From: Polyporus tsugae
Taxonomy: Eukaryota; Basidiomycota; Agaricomycetes; Polyporales; Polyporaceae
Length of the DNA: 64,000 nt
Assembly: GCA_024305745.1 (NCBI GenBank)
Contig: JAHRBS010000013.1
Coordinates: 1,736,001 to 1,800,000, forward strand
Direction: 5' to 3'
The first letter of the stretch is position 1. The number at the start of each line of letters is the position of its first letter. The position numbers and the translations under genes are program-made. Below are positions 33,826 to 45,103 of the stretch, piece after piece. A model generated the notes under the pieces. That model did not search any database and was not told the DNA's origin. It saw nothing but the letters and a program-made list of their open reading frames with translations.

Positions 33826-35974
33826 ATGGACCGAAAAGGACGCGGTGGCCCACCGCACCGACGACAGAGCTCGCTCCCAGCCTGCCTCCATGGCCTAATA
33901 ATCCAGGGCCCCTCCCAAGCACGCAGGAGCACGACACTAGAGGAGACGGCGGGGCAGTCGGGTTCGGGGTCACAAGATAGGCAGGAGAGCCCGTCGAGGA
34001 ACACCGTCGCCCCCCACGCGCATTCGACCGTATCAGTCCTGATAGGCCAGCAGCTCCCCTCGCTCATCCTCACGCAGGCGGTCTTCGATGACAGTGGAGA
34101 GAGCGGAGAGAGCGTGGAAAGCGGGAGAGCGAGCCCGTCTCCTCCGTCCAGGGGTAATGACCAAGATGGAGATGCCGTTGCGCGACCTGTCCTTTCCCTT
34201 CCCTCCCGCCTGCCCGCCTGGGGCGTCGTCCGATCCGACCCTGTGTACTATGCGTCAACGTTTGGATTTCCGACCTACACTGTCCCCCCGCCTGGCCCGC
34301 TTCTCCCGCCTATATCGTGGCCCCCGCCAGAACCGTCAAGAGATCCGCCGCGCCGCGCGAGCCCGAATAGGAGCGATCCACCGTCATTTTATCCCGTTCC
34401 ACCGCGGGGTCCGCGCCGTGCTTCTCCACCGTCGTCGCCCGTCGCGGGGCCATCGCGACTGCAGGGACATTCTCCGGTGAGTTCTACCCCGCGCAGTGGG
34501 AGGCCTTCGGAGTCTCACACTGCGCACTCGTCGCCGGAGGCTCCCTACCCAACTGTGAGCAAGCCGATAGACATCCCATGGCGCGGATCAGTAGATGGCA
34601 CGTACGGTGAGTCCCCTCGTTACAGATGGCACATCCGGATGCATGAATACGAGTCGAGCAGATTCGGGGAGCTTTTCTTGGGCGCCCCCATCACGGTTTC
34701 CTGCCGACGAGCGGGAGATCCGCCCCCTTCCTTCCGCGCGGGGGTCAAGAGGTGCACGCTCCCCCCCAGTTCAGAGGCGAGCGTCCGAGAGCCGGCACGG
34801 GAGTCTACCGCCCGCGTTCCCCGAAGGCTACAGCGTCGGTGTCGGGCCGACTGCCTACCATGTCACGACGTTGGCGCCGTTGCGGTCGGCCACGGTCCTG
34901 TCTCGTGCGGGCGAGCCAGTACCCACACCAGGACCTTCGGCACCCAGTCCTGGGTTTCCGGCGGACCGTCGTTCAGCCATCGCCTCCCACAGCACCGAGA
35001 CGCTGCATTTCAAAGGAAAGTCAAAGGCTGCGAGACATACAGATGCCGAAGGGTCAGCAAGTGTCCTGGGAAAGAGGAGGCGACGGAGGAGGGGGGAGAA
35101 GGAGAAAGAGGGCGGGAGTTCGGAGAACTCAGAGTACGCATACACGCCGAAGTCGAAGAAGACGTTGATTGCCTGTCATTTTTGCCGCGGTGAGTACACA
35201 CTCGAGCCGTCGCCCCATCCGCGGCCGTTCCAGGCTCGCGCACGAGGAGGGAGCTGACGTCTTCTGAATCGCTCCGGGACGGTAGCCCGGAAATTACGCT
35301 GCGATGGACAGAAGCCAGGATGCGCAAACTGCTTGCGGCGCGGCAACGCATGCACATACGAGCCGGAGCCGAGGCGGCGGGGACCTGCCAAGAAGAACAA
35401 GAACGAGAACGAGGGTAAGGGCGAGGACGACGACAACGACGAGGACAGAGACAAGGAAAAGGATAAGGCGAAACGGACCGCCAGGCGGAGTTGGGCGAGT
35501 GGGAGCGGTGCAAGAGCCCGGCGGGCGAGGTACAGCGGCGCACGCCCGGCGGAAGGCGCGGAAGGAATGTCTGCGAGTGCGCCGGCAGGTCTGGGCCAGA
35601 CAGCTTCGTTCCCATATACACGATCGGCTTTCGAACCACGTCTGTCCGGGCCAATGCTCACCTACCCCGGGCTGTCTTACCGTCCGCCGCCACCCTCGTC
35701 GTCATACAGCGCCCCGCCCGTTGCGTTCACGTTCCTCAGTGTTCGCCCCGGTCCGAGTCGGAGTGCCGCCTCTGCCCCGGAGAGCGGCCAGTCGTCGACC
35801 GCGTCCGCCGCGGAGAGCACCCAGTCGTCAAACACGTCGGCGCCCGAGAGCGTGCAGTCGTCGACGGCCTCGTCCGTGCCCGACTCGGAGGACGGTGCGT
35901 ACGAGGACATGGATTACTTCGACTACGACGAGTTCTATGGGCATACGAGTCCGCGCGGTAGGCCGTCGCAGTAG
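33826..35974 (+). CDS. Zn2Cys6 transcription factor with C-terminal zinc cluster
   Basis: A likely DNA-binding regulator of about 665 residues from three exons: 33826-34606, 34662-35189 and 35286-35974. The first 440 residues are Ser/Pro-rich and disordered. The zinc cluster then follows KSKKTLIACHFCR and continues ARKLRCDGQKPGCANCLRR, fitting C-x2-C-x6-C-x6-C-x2-C-x6-C. It is split by a phase-1 intron right after the Cys-x2-Cys-Arg. After it comes a highly charged Lys/Glu/Asp stretch, then a repeat of SAPESGQSSTAS type and an acidic end (MDYFDYDEFYGH), a plausible activation domain. There is no fungal-specific TF middle-homology domain. The first intron is placed as 55 nt, because a 19-nt alternative is too short to splice. 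Confidence 0.8.
35763..35880 (+). repeat. Degenerate in-frame repeat of Ser/Glu-rich peptide
   Basis: About four copies of a unit close to SAPESxQSSTAS, of about 30-36 nt, near the C-terminus of the zinc-cluster regulator. Confidence 0.7.
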
Positions 35975-37513: not shown

Positions 37514-40500
37514 ATGGATCCCATCGACCCCCGCCATCGTCGCGCTGAGGTTGACCATGAGCTGGACGCCTACGGGCGCACCCACTCCAACCACAAGCAC
37601 CCCCACGCCCGCTGTCAGACCCGCCCGCCCCGCGCAGACAGGATGCCAGCCGAGGACATCTCCGGCTACACGCTCATGGTCGCTGGCCGTCGCACAGGCA
37701 AGACCTCCTTCCTCCGCTTGCTCCTCGACACCAGCACCGTGTCCTCTTTCGTGACCAGTGACCAGCTCGCGTCCGTAGCCAAGTTCGTCCAGGGCTGCAG
37801 TGGTCACACTGCGCATGTCCGGTCCGTGTCTATCGACATTGACCTGGCGCCTGACGAGGTGGATGAAGAATTCCCCCTCACCCTGACACTGATCGACACG
37901 CCTTCTTTGGATTTCGAGGACGACGCCTCGTCTCAACGCGCCATTCAGGAGATCCTCAGACATGTTGAGTCGCGGTTGGGGGAGAGTTTGGACGACGTGA
38001 GTCGCCCGTCTGGTGAATAAGCGCCCATGTGGCCTGACCTCCGTCGCGCAACAGGAACACAGAACCCTTGCTGGCGACCACCTTGTACATCTGTACGTCC
38101 CCATTTCATTTCTCCCTCACATATCACTGCTGTCTCGCCCTTGCGAGAGCATGGCCATCTTTTATGACGCTCTTCCACTATGGGGGGCACTCGGGTCACG
38201 TTAAGCGATCCTCACGCGTCACGGAGTTGGGGCCGCATGAACCGGAGTTGTCTGTCTTCGCTCTCACCCTCGGGTTTCCCCCTTGAATTCATGCCGTCAT
38301 CTCGAGCGGCCCTTGTGCTGCTTTGAGGCGGATGGGGCGACCGGAGTGCGTGCAGTGCGGGTCGTCCGAGATCTTCGGTGCCAGTCGCGTCCCCGCCCCA
38401 GGCTGGCGCTGTTCGCCGCGGTGCCAGACCCTGTCGCATTTCGCCTCTTCGGGGCCCGACACACCCGATGGTTGCTAGACGCAGCTTCTAGTTCTTGCGC
38501 TCTCCGTCCTACGGCCGAGTTCCGTCGCTTCCAGCATCCCTTGCTGATGAGGGATGGCCGGCCCCTTCCCGCTGCCACGGACCAAGTGCGGAGCGATCCG
38601 TCGGTATCGCATTTGTTCCTCGCTTCCCAGGCGCTTGGGCGATTGGAGTTGGTTTGTGGACCTTGCTGCTGCGTCCTCTCTGTCTTCTGCGCGGCACCGT
38701 GCACATCCTTGTGGAGTGCGCTGGGAAGTCGGGGCTGGGAGGTCATGTGGATAGATGCCGATGGATCTCGGCGATTCCGCATTGCTTCAGGAATCTGGGG
38801 CGATGACGCTCTAATCGGCAGGCCCTGCAGTTCGGCGAACCGCTGCGTGTACCGAACCCACTAAGATTTCTTAGCTTTCTTTATCGGGATGGGTTGCCGG
38901 GATACCTACGCGGGAGGGTGCACAGGGCATAGCCGCGGGATAACGCGAGTCCGCTCCTGGGAGAGCTGTATGCGGTGCTTTGCGCCTCTCGACTCGAGTT
39001 GCGATAGGTTATCCTGAACTGCTAGCTAACACTCCTTTGTCTGCAGATGCGTTTATTTCCTAGACCCGGACTACATTGTACCACCCTCCGTGCCAGCACC
39101 ACCCGTCCCTCTTGTACCTCGTGCACGTACCAACAGTCTTTCCACCCATGAGTCCGAACCTGTCATCCTCGAACCACCTGTCAGCAACAACCCCATGCTC
39201 TGTCGACCCATCCTCCCAGCCTCCGACATCACCGCCATTCGCCGGCTATCCGCACGCGTTAATGTGCTGCCTGTCATTGCTCGTGCAGACACTCTGACGG
39301 CTGACCGTCTCAACGCGGTGAAGATGGCTATCCGCAGGGACCTTGCTGAAGCAGGTATCGGCTTCGGCATCTTCGACCTCGACATCCCACTGTACGCACA
39401 GCTGGAGTCCAAGGTCGCGAAGAACAAGGCCGAGAACGGTTTCATGAAGCACCATCTCACCGGTAACAGCAATTCGCCGCCCTCGACACCTATCACGCCG
39501 ACGCTCTTGCGGCTACCGTTTTCTTTGATTTCACCCGACATTTACTCGCATAGCGACGGAGTCGGGCGCCCACAGCTGTCCCGTCACGAGCTTATGCATC
39601 AGTACGATCCTTCGAAACACGTCACTGTCAAAAACCAGTCAATACCGAAGACCGCGCTCGGCAGGTTTGTGAGGAATTATCGGTGGGGTTCCCTCGACGT
39701 CATGGATGCGAGCCATTGCGAGTTCCTTCACCTGCGTGGTGCCGTCTTCCATCACATGGAGGTATGCCGTGGTCTCAGTGCTCCGCCATCATGCAACTTA
39801 TTGATCCGCCTCAATCTTGCCTGTAGACATTGCAAAAGTACACGCGAGAGTACTTATTTGAGAAGTTCAGGGCAGAGGTGCAACCTCAGGCGCCACCGCC
39901 CGCCGCTCGTCCGACTCCGACTCAGCAGCCTGCGCGGGTCGACAACCGCCTGCCGCCCATGCGCGATTCCCGCCCTATCCTCGCCATTGAAACTACGCCA
40001 GCCCATACGAATGGGAACAGACATGTTTCCATGCCGCGCTCAGGTATTGTGAATGGCCATGGGGAGCAACTACCTGTTCAGGGTCTTTCGGCTGCTGCGT
40101 TGGCGGAGCTCTCGCCGAAGATGAACACATCCTCCAGTAAGTTTCATTTATCGTTTGTCTTGGCTCGCCGCCCACGTTCTTCTTTTCCCTAGGATCCCAG
40201 CGCCAGCGGGCCAAAAAGATAACGGTGGCATGCAACTTCTGCAGATGTAAGTTCCAGCCCCATTCTCGCATTCAGTCGGAGCGCGCGTTCTCACCTTCTG
40301 CTCGGCTTGGGCGCAGCACGGAAACTCAAGTGCGACGGCGGCAGACCGGCATGCGGCCAGTGCTTCAAACGTCAGAACCCGTGCGACTACACCGCAAGCA
40401 ACAAACGCCGCAACTCTGGCAAAGCGCGGAAACAGTACGGAAGCGACAGCGAGGGTGACAGCATCGAGGAAGGTACGGCCGACCTGGATCACCACCCGTC

Positions 40501-41322
40501 CCATTCCCCCGAACTGTCATCGTCCGCTCCGCACTCCCGAAGAAGCTCGAACGTCAGCATGCTTCTGACGGACACGCTCCCGCCTCTGAGTGCCGCGGTC
40601 GAGCCACGCGAAGAAGCCCCCGCGGTCCTCCCTCCGATCAACTCTCAGGTCGCTGCTGGTTATGGCGTGTCCCCTGCGTCCCGCCGGCCGTCGCTCAACA
40701 CCGAACTGCCGCCCATCGCAACCTTGTCGGCGCCGCCCCGTCCACAGGAGGATCCGCCTTCGCTCGTGGCCCTCAAGCAGGCGGAGAGCGCGGCGTCGCG
40801 ACGACGCACGTCTTCCGCGACCTCTGGCTCGGTCTCTGGCTCTGGCCGCGGGGGTCGTGGGGGCCACGGATCAAAGATTGTGGCATGCAACTTCTGTCGA
40901 GGTACGCCTTTTTTCCCATGTTGCAGATCATGCAGATTGCGGTGCAGCATTTTGACTGATCGTCACCGCCCTGCACAGCGCGGAAGACGAGGTGCGACGG
41001 CGCGCACCCCACGTGCAGCAGCTGCTCGCGGCGATCGCTGCGGTGCAACTACGTCAACGACCCCGCAGCGAAGGGGCGCTCGAAGAGCGCAACGAGCGGG
41101 GGCGCGTCACCGCCCGATGTGTCGACGTCTGCGTCCGCGTCCGCATCGTCGCGGGCATCGCCCGTCGCGCTGACGCCGAGCATCCCAGATACGGTCTCCA
41201 TGTCGGTCGTCGGGAGCCGGCCGCTGAGCTCGTACGACCCGGACATGATGCAGGCGCCGGCGAAGAAAATGCGGCTCTCGCACCAGCTGAGCACGCCGCC
41301 AATCGCGGTGCTCGGGCAATAA
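37514..41322 (+). CDS. Septin-like GTPase fused to two Zn2Cys6 clusters
   Basis: Seven exons (37514-37996, 38055-38092, 39047-39761, 39827-40136, 40193-40246, 40317-40901, 40979-41322) total 2529 nt, giving 842 residues. Septin part: degenerate P-loop VAGRRTGKTS, switch-like LIDTPSLDF, the G4-type block VNVLPVIARADTLTADRL, the septin-type NYRWGSLDVMDASHCEFL and the C-terminal LQKYTREYLFEKFRAE. The same exon runs on through a Pro/Gln-rich linker. A splice in phase then enters the first zinc cluster, ITVACNFCR/SRKLKCDGGRPACGQC. After a Ser-rich region a second cluster follows, IVACNFCR/ARKTRCDGAHPTCSSC, then a Ser/Ala-rich end. Both clusters fit C-x2-C-x6-C-x6-C-x2-C-x6-C and both are cut by a phase-1 intron after Cys-x2-Cys-Arg. 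No stop codon separates the septin and zinc parts. A separate internal promoter remains possible. Confidence 0.78.
38093..39046 (+). other. 954-nt intron in the septin-zinc fusion gene
   Basis: It starts GTACGT and ends CTGCAG. It separates DHLVHL from CVYFLDPDYI, the same position as a 66-nt intron in the downstream paralogue (HIHL/CIYMIDP). All other introns in these genes are about 55-110 nt. Its content has no recognisable gene or clear terminal repeats. Confidence 0.65.
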
Positions 41323-42707
41323 GTCGCGCTCCCGCGAGAGTGCGTCGCGACGTGTACAAACAGTGTGTATCGTCGCAGTGTGTACACTCGGTGTCCCGTT
41401 GTCGGGCACATTTCGTACTCGGATCGAGTTTGTTGTTTTTCCAGGCAATGGACCGTTGTTCGGATATCGCTGAAATTCTGTTGGTAGAAAGCGCATACGC
41501 GTATGATCATATTCCCCGATTTTTGATTCCCCTCCCACTACTTACCCATTTCATAGCATTTACCCCCCCCGTCTGCAGACCCCGTATCCCCATATTCCCG
41601 TCTATTTGATTGGTACCAATATCGCTCCGCCCCTCCTTCCCTTTCCCCCTTCACTTCCCTTGCCCCATGTCTTTGTCTTGGGTCTTAGGATTGTCGCCAC
41701 GCTCGTTGTGCATCGGAACTTGTACTATAGCCCCTTCCCATGTCCTGCTTCTGCTGCTAGCTGCCAGATATCCTCCTAGCTTGCTTGCTGCTTCCAGATA
41801 CGCGTTCCAAGTGCCGGCTGCTCCGCCTCAGACTCTCGCCGGTGCGTACATGTACGATTGCATACAGGACCCGTCTGCCAGAAAACGATCCGTCCGAGCA
41901 TCCACTGCAGAGCACATTGGATGGCGAGATGCATCGATGGGATTTGAGTTTTCGGACCTATTCGACCGAATGCGTAGAGCTGGGATGATGGAGGGCACCG
42001 TGCACATCACAACGGGGTGGACAGTTTGTTGGTAACTTTGTACGTTCCCAGAGGGCCGAGGGCCAGAGAACGGACTCGAACAGTGGCCCGCCCTGCGAAT
42101 TTGACGACGGACATGACGTCGAATGTGTGTGGTTCGTTCCGTGCGTCCGCTCCGTCGTGCCAGCAGCGTCACAACGAAGCGCAGCCGGTTGCCCACCTCG
42201 TGGCAGGTCGAGAGTCCTCACGCACATGCAAGAATATGTTTGTTCTGCTGTCTTCCACCGGCCACTACGTAAATGCTGGTATCATGCAGCACTGTAAAGA
42301 GACGAATGCTTCCGCTGGCCTCAATGGTCAGGCGTGGGAGAGCGGGACCGTCCCGGACGGAGAAAGACGAACCGCAGTTTGAGCCGGGCCTGGAATGGGA
42401 AGATGCCAAATAGAGGAGAGGAGGGATGAGGGGAAGCGCGGGATGTTGGAAACAAAGGCAACGTCGGCTGTCGCCTCGTTGGCATTCCCCTTGGACGTCC
42501 CGAGCGCAAACAGCCTTTCGCTCCGAGCCGCTCTCTCTCCGCCGCCGCATGCACATACTCCTTCCGCTCGTCGTCGCTGGTCGCATATCGCCCTTCCTCG
42601 CTTCTCCCGCTCCTTTTGCCTCCCCAATCGCCTCTCTCACCCACTGATACCAATCCCCCCCCCCCCCCCCCCCCGCGTCCCCGTCCCTGCCCGACTCGTC
42701 CTCCAGC
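41323..42707. other. 1.4-kb spacer ahead of the second septin-like gene
   Basis: No supported gene; a 237-codon minus frame at 42218-42931 lies antisense to the promoter and first exon. The right end is a strongly pyrimidine-rich leader containing a 20-C tract. Confidence 0.45.
42655..42674 (+). repeat. 20-nt poly-C tract upstream of a septin-like gene
   Basis: An uninterrupted run of 20 C ends 33 nt before the ATG at 42708, within a C/T-rich leader. It is the longest homopolymer I see in the window. Confidence 0.85.
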
Positions 42708-45103
42708 ATGTTCAGCTTCCGTCGCAAGCCCAGCAAAAACTTGGAAAACCCCTCTGGCCCGCCCTTCATCCATACCTCACCCTCACTCCCGGAGCTCTCC
42801 TCACAGGGCATTCCATGGCCTAGCAACCTCGTCGATCTTTCCCAGCTCCCGCAGGACGCGTCTCCTCCGAGCCATCCTCGAGGCGCTGTAAAGACGTCGT
42901 TCACGACCGACGGGCCAGTTCCATTCCACAAGCCGTGGTCCTCGCCCGGAAAGGCAACAAGCAGCCCTGTCGGCCCGCCGATCGCGTCCTTGTACGCGTC
43001 TCATCCACCTTCTGCATTCGCGTTAGACCCCCGCAAGGTCACCCATGGCTCCACTCGCCAACGCGCGAACCAGAAGCGCAACAGGAACCCAACCACATTC
43101 AACCTTATGGTGCGTGTCGCCCGTCCTCTCGCATCCATGCTCGCTCGACCATCTAGCGTGCTCATTGTCGCTTTGTTGGTTGGTAGGTTGCCGGTGTGCA
43201 GGGCCTTGGTAAGACTTCTCTTCTTCGCCTGCTCCTGGACACCGCGGATGTTTCCCCCACCGCCACCGCCGACCAGAAGGCCGCGATGGACCGCTTCCTC
43301 CGTGGCTCGACCAAGCGCACGGAGGCCATTCAGTCTGCATGCGTCGAGATTTGCGAGAGCAAGTACGACAGGCTGCTGCTCTCCGTCATTGACACGCCCG
43401 GTCTCGACTTCCAGGAGGGACACGAGCTCAAGATGGAACGCCAGGTCTCGACGATCGTCAAGTACCTTGATTCGCAGTTCGCGGACACAATGAGTGAGGT
43501 GCGTAGCTACCGCTGTTCCCAACTGCATCGCGTCGCTCCCGCCGCTGTCGCGGCGTGCCATGTGAACGATTACCAGCATGGGGTCCTGGGAACTGACGTT
43601 CTACGCAGGAATCAAAGGTTGTTCGTCAAAGCAAGGGTGACCAACACATTCATTTGTAAGTGCCAAACACACTTCTAGCGAGCTTTGTGACGGTTTCCTC
43701 TGCTCACGCGCATTCTGCAGATGCATCTACATGATCGATCCCTCCTCCGTTGTGACGGAGGGGACACGGCGCGGCCGGTCATCCTTCCCCGCCAAGGTCC
43801 GCTCGGAAACGACCGTCTCCTACAAGCCGCCAGACCTCTCTTCCATGTCCGAAGAGACGGACTCGGAAGAGGAGGAAGACGAGAACGGCCTCACCATGTC
43901 CCCCGTCGACATCCGCGTCCTCCGCCGCATCGCCGCCCGCGCAAACATCCTGCCAGTCGTCGCCCGCGCGGACTCGCTGACGGACGCGAAGCTCGCCGCG
44001 GTCAAGAAGGCCATCCACCGCGATCTCCACGCCGCAGACATCGACTTTGGGGTGTTCGGGCCCATCGCGGACGACCCGAAGATCCCTGACGGGCACAACG
44101 CGAACGGCCACAACCACACGAACAGCATCAGCAATGTCAGCGAAGTCAGCGCCGAGCCCACCACTAACGGCACCAGCAACGGACACGCCACCCCCGAGCC
44201 CTCCACCCAAGCCGAGGAGAACGGCAAGGACCAGGACCAGCAGGCGCAAGCGGAGCGGCCCTCGCGCCCGGTAATCAAGCTGCGGCCCACGCGACTCACG
44301 CGCCGTCCCTCGCGGTCGCGGTCGCGGCTCGAGATGTCCGAGATGGCGCTCGCGGAGGACCCGAACTCGCTCGAGCTCGTCAACGACACGGAGAGCGTCG
44401 CGAGCGTGCGCTTCTCCGCGCACATCGTCGCCAAGACGGACCTCAGCGCGCACCTCCCCTTCGCGCTCATCACGCCCGAGCACGCGCGCCGCCGCCACCA
44501 CGGCAAGAGCGTCGTCGCGGCGTCGCCGTCGAGCGTGAACGGCCACGGGGCGGCAGGGGAGGCAGCGAGCCGGAGGGCGTCGACGCTCGCCGCGCCGTCC
44601 GAGGACGGGCACGCACAGTCGGTGACGGCGTCGGTGAGCCCGTCGACGCCCGCGTCGCTTCGCCACTATCCGTACCTGCAGGGCCCGCCCGCGGACCTGC
44701 GGGGGGTGTTCGTGCGGCGGTTCCGGTGGGGGACGATCGACGTGCTGAATCCGGAGCATTGCGACTTCCCGGCGATGCGGACGGCGGTCATGTCGACGCA
44801 CATCAAGGTTCGTGTTCTCTGCTGCGGTGCTGTCGCTTGTTCTGAATCGTGGGGATGGATGGACGGACGGATGCTGACGGGCGGGGGTGTCTGTTTTTCA
44901 GCTGCTCAAACTCCGAACGAAGGAGGTGCTGTACGAGAAGTACAGGACAGAGAAGCTGCTCGCAAGGCGTGCAACACGCAACATCGGCGAGGATGAGACC
45001 CGGAGGCTGCTGGAAGGTGCGTCCCATCGACATGCTGTGAATTGTTGGATCGTTCAACGTGCATCTGTCTGACCATATCTTCCTCGCAGAATTGGGATTG
45101 TGA
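42708..45103 (+). CDS. Septin-like GTPase with long internal insertion
   Basis: Starts MFSFRRKPSKNLENPSG; about 600 residues in about six exons (introns near 43110-43186, 43499-43608, 43656-43721, 44808-44901 and 45017-45089). The P-loop VAGVQGLGKTSLLRLLLD is intact, and so are the switch-like VIDTPGLDFQEG and the G4-type VARADSLTD. The septin-type RFRWGTIDVLNPEHCDFP follows, and a C-terminal basic, possibly coiled-coil helix begins LKLRTKEVLYEKYRTEKLL. Between the G4 block and the RWG block lie about 250 residues of low-complexity, His/Asn- and Ser/Thr-rich sequence, far longer than in canonical septins. Known septins polymerise as filaments at the cortex; whether this divergent one does is unknown. 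It is a close tandem paralogue of the septin part of the upstream fusion gene. Confidence 0.83.

Follow-up and report, generated by a model that had tools for sequence, protein, structure and literature searches.

Septins are cortical polymers that serve as scaffolds of the cell cortex. In the Zn2Cys6 transcription factors, the Fungal_trans domain is common but not required, and Lys18 of Gal4 is a base-contacting residue. Both kinds of domain have been reported together in PoZCP55 of Pleurotus ostreatus, for which three septin (PF00735) domains and two C-terminal zinc clusters are mentioned in a single sentence of a family survey, where the protein stands in a clade of its own (PMC7295025). 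In the present study, a window of 64,000 nucleotides from Polyporus tsugae (positions 1,736,001 to 1,800,000 of contig JAHRBS010000013.1) was analysed, in which a gene at 37514..41322, herein designated S1-Zn-Zn, is predicted from its reading frame to encode a fused protein of 842 amino acids, with a septin-like G domain followed by a pair of complete Zn2Cys6 clusters. According to the published description, PoZCP55 is very probably the orthologue of S1-Zn-Zn, and the three septin domains reported for it can be read as a single G domain split by insertions, as observed here. An earlier note on this DNA knew of no described protein that joins the two domain types; this view was nearly right, except that the architecture is in print for PoZCP55. 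In the accessible part of the survey, no analysis of the distribution, nucleotide pocket, synteny, or function of PoZCP55 was found. Among the papers returned by searches of open PMC literature, this survey alone was found to describe the architecture, and none dealt with function; zinc is not mentioned in the accessible portions of two septin-evolution papers.

The seven exons named in the earlier note reproduced its model: the spliced exons comprise 2529 nt, encoding 842 amino acids and a stop, and the six introns are all GT-AG. All features of the window described here are on the forward strand. Exon 1 (37514..37996) encodes the N-terminus, the P-loop AGRRTGKT (residue 57), the switch I Thr, and the G3 motif DTPS (residue 128), and is followed by a short exon 2 of 38 nt (38055..38092), whose counterpart in the tandem paralogue S2, described below, is a 47-nt exon (43609-43655) with an identical end phase. 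Intron 2 (38093..39046) spans 954 bases, while the remaining five introns span 56-77 bases. Exon 3 (39047..39761) carries a Pro-rich insertion loop containing EPVILEPP (residue 211), the G4 motif ARAD (residue 252), and the RWG block (YRWG from residue 385). The junction lies within exon 4 (39827..40136), which holds the septin C-terminal helix (TLQKYTREYLFEKFR, from residue 413), the conserved linker motif SRPILAIE (residue 460), and most of the remaining linker, and no stop codon interrupts the reading frame in this exon. After intron 4 (40137..40192), the CNFC of zinc cluster 1 (residue 529) is encoded in the 54-nt exon 5 (40193..40246) and the rest of this cluster in exon 6 (40317..40901), together with the inter-cluster region with its ELPPIATLS motif and the CNFC of cluster 2. 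Cluster 2 is thus split by an intron at the position equivalent to the split in cluster 1 (40901/40979), and exon 7 (40979..41322) encodes its remainder, the C-terminal KKMR motif, and the stop. Consistent with the earlier description of a septin domain running through exon 4 into two complete clusters, Pfam returned three stretches of Septin (E 1.9e-32) and two of Zn_clus (E 5.1e-17) on the 842-residue product and no other family at E<=0.1, hence no Fungal_trans. The start ATG at 37514 is supported but less certain than the rest of the model, because some relatives share the exon-1 start and others begin downstream. A strict pattern for the exon-1-like N-terminal motif matched 37 of 120 listed homologue models, and the N-terminus here (MDPIDPRHRRAE) resembles those of Daedaleopsis nitida (MNSIDIRHRRPD) and Laetiporus (MDVLDHRAHRDD), whereas the closest listed homologue (P0001) begins at residue 44 of the 842-residue product.

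The joined architecture is conserved. In a search with the full protein, 7993 candidates sharing the most words were scored, giving 203 homologues, and PF00735 and PF00172 occurred together in all of the best 120 that were listed. A further search, likewise scoring the candidates sharing the most words, listed 120 of 268 matches. The closest listed homologue, from Ganoderma leucocontextum, showed 98% identity over 95% of the query, which makes Ganoderma the very probable genus of the source. Fused forms were listed in Jaapiales, Atheliales, and Gloeophyllales (orders looked up) and, judging by the species names, also in Polyporales, Agaricales, Boletales, and Russulales, while Phellinidium (Hymenochaetales) gave a weak partial match to the zinc region. 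For residue-level comparison, alignment A1 was composed of 77 rows picked for spread (68 of the 120 listed homologues and 9 from other searches), leaving out most over-long rows, short rows, and close relatives. The motif RPxLxI[DE], which lies between the septin helix and cluster 1, was present in 71/77 rows, with R in 74, P in 75, and I in 75. At least one Met occurred in the linker of 71/77 rows, yet no column held Met in more than 18, so no conserved internal start was detected. Moreover, record P0084 contains an open reading frame (ORF) of 820 amino acids (2463 nt), and its longest contig has 2592 bases. The introns of S1-Zn-Zn total 1280 bases, or 326 bases without intron 2; because the contig is too short for this ORF plus such introns, it looks like spliced RNA, and an intron-poor gene would also fit these lengths. 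Record P0083, with 259 bases left, agrees less strongly. The earlier note had named a read-through annotation or an internal promoter as the main alternative; given the joined state of the 120 listed homologues, the linker motif, the lack of a conserved internal start, and the full-length, apparently spliced ORF of P0084, this is unlikely.

The septin half shows both a Septin Pfam match and the septin G-domain fold, and the three Pfam stretches fit one G domain divided by insertions. In A1, the GK[TS] of the P-loop is mostly retained (K 75/77, T 71/77, S 4/77, two gaps), and GxxxxGK[ST] is missing in 116/120 listed homologues, the four matches being DTPGKT stretches (three) or a merged S2 part (one). 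The Gly position of the G3 DTPG is Ser in 70/77 rows (Ala 3, Thr 1, Gly 1, gap 2), for which reason the domain is named septin-like and not a canonical septin. At G4, Asp is present in 75/77 rows (two gaps), and the Lys position of AKAD is occupied by Arg in 60, Cys in 9, Lys in 6, and a gap in 2. The septin C-terminal helix is conserved across A1. In a tree, the septin half falls outside the group of five canonical septins from the same genome and forms a separate clade with support of 100/100, although these septins were entered as exon fragments, two of them less than half filled, and a long-branch warning applies. Compared with canonical opisthokont septins (Cdc3/Cdc10/Cdc11/Cdc12, SEPT2/3/9), S1 differs in a P-loop one residue shorter, DTPS for DTPG, mostly ARAD for AKAD, the lack of a basic stretch before G1, a long inserted loop, a separate clade, and the attached zinc clusters. 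The septin-like G domain proposed earlier is upheld, with the correction that this half is a divergent paralogue of septin type whose nucleotide pocket is changed.

In the zinc half, both clusters read CX2CX6CX6CX2CX6C, in agreement with the Gal4-type pattern CX2CX6CX5-12CX2CX6-9C, and PDB matches include Gal4, Hap1, and Put3. All six Cys are retained in 77/77 rows of A1 for cluster 1 and 76/77 for cluster 2, and the same numbers apply to the Lys equivalent to Gal4 Lys18. Further conserved motifs are ELPxIATLS between the clusters and a KKMR-like motif at the C-terminus. Unlike Gal4-type factors, whose cysteine spacing S1-Zn-Zn shares, this protein carries two clusters on a single chain, approximately 195 residues apart and both C-terminal, together with a septin-like domain and no Fungal_trans match.

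Herein, we propose that S1-Zn-Zn is a single fused protein, old in the Agaricomycetes, that acts as a nuclear transcription factor with a septin pairing module, a reading to which we assign a probability of roughly 0.6. That it is one protein is argued by the single open frame, the presence of both domain types here and in all listed relatives, and the conserved linker. The two zinc clusters would bind paired CGG-type half-sites, and the degenerate septin G domain would stand in for the coiled coil or Fungal_trans part that is usually present, serving for self-pairing or for pairing with septin partners, of which S2 is the most likely. The nucleotide would probably stabilise the fold and interface rather than act as a fast switch. 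As far as sequence can indicate, a transcription factor with a degenerate septin as its pairing module is the most economical reading. Several observations weigh against it. The switch I Thr is conserved in 75/77 rows of A1 (two gaps), and some GTPase activity is therefore possible. In the AlphaFold model, the predicted local distance difference test score is below 50 in 393/795 residues; low confidence extends over the linker and the zinc parts as well as a large share of the RWG region, and for this reason no contact between the septin and zinc halves is predicted. In addition, the zinc-only ORFs P0127 and P0132, which resemble the Artomyces protein P0126, begin just past the septin helix. 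Their contigs measure 1474 and 1537 bases; the two ORFs may represent distinct proteins, although truncated contigs would explain them too.

The main rival explanation, which we consider unlikely, is a membrane- or septum-tethered regulator, in which the septin half would assemble with septin rings and thereby keep the zinc clusters from entering the nucleus until they are set free by ring disassembly, cleavage, or alternative splicing. The presence of the septin fold is consistent with this explanation, as is a possible septin-only form: if intron 4 is retained, the frame would close at the TAG of the intron's acceptor site (stop at 40190), giving a predicted product of 533 amino acids, and Taiwanofungus camphoratus is annotated with both a fused form (P0031, 839 amino acids) and a septin-only form (P0188, AcW2_007443, 588 amino acids) under one locus tag. 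P0188 departs from the fused form after the linker and differs in two other places as well. Because of these two observations, a regulated septin-only form is possible. However, no polybasic stretch was found before G1, the 20 upstream residues averaging 1.6 K/R against 2.2 D/E in 59 proteins, and the nucleotide pocket is altered. According to the accessible part of one report, the polybasic stretch before the P-loop is tied to membrane recognition and stability of the NC interface (PMC11238149). Less probable still is a protein chiefly of the septin pathway, with zinc clusters for protein or RNA contacts and not for DNA; the conserved septin C-terminal helix would suit such a role, but the retention of the cluster cysteines and of the Gal4-Lys18-like lysine in both clusters speaks against it. 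A wrong merger of adjacent genes by the gene predictors is very improbable and already largely refuted by the joined listed models, the conserved linker, the lack of a shared internal Met, and the 820-residue ORF of P0084, whose contig leaves too little room for introns, even though predictors do merge genes here (Tephrocybe, Amanita, and others carry neighbour genes joined onto the fused gene) and the halves are annotated as two models in Tricholoma furcatifolium and Termitomyces sp. T32_za158 (adjacent locus tags; P0191/P0156 and P0192/P0148) and Grifola frondosa (P0208/P0125, contigs of equal size). Two of these annotations lack zinc cluster 1, and because the breaks fall at differing places, two zinc-only models starting past cluster 1 and the third within the septin helix, they look like broken models of a single gene.

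The tandem paralogue S2 (42708..45103, six exons, 658 amino acids, ending at TGA) shares 34% identity with S1 (E 1e-38), three coinciding exon boundaries, and a common clade (100/100). In contrast to S1, it retains a full-length P-loop and DTPG, has a basic stretch before G1 (K/R 4.3, D/E 0; three rows) and one extra intron ahead of the P-loop, and shows no zinc cluster, the protein stopping shortly after the septin C-terminal helix. A run of approximately 20 C lies directly upstream of its start codon (about 42656-42675). The pairing of the fused gene with S2 was also observed in two Tephrocybe models. Upstream, a gene at 33826..35974 encodes one Zn2Cys6 cluster. In Amanita phalloides and P0059, and partly in Lanmaoa, the fused gene likewise has a zinc cluster ahead of it. 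Elsewhere in the assembly, which totals 43.2 Mb in 18 contigs, the canonical septin genes L011 and L012 (contigs C7 and C5) are close mutual copies in the exons read, and L010 on C13, a weak Septin-profile match (E 3.2e-4) with the P-loop GVTNAGKT and DTPG, may belong to another GTPase family.

With a septin module inside a transcription factor, gene expression in mushroom-forming fungi might be set directly by the assembly state of septins during septation, clamp formation, or tip growth, or by the septin-like product of a neighbouring gene, with intron 4 splicing freeing septin-only forms; we regard this extension as speculative and rather unlikely. The joined protein is present in many mushroom-forming fungi, and very little has been written on it in the literature accessible to us. 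With the fused protein, it can be asked directly whether transcription control involves septins or septin-like pseudo-GTPases. Because both domains occur in all 120 listed relatives and the neighbours recur in other species, it is likely to be important in Agaricomycete biology, and it is open to testing in Coprinopsis or Pleurotus.
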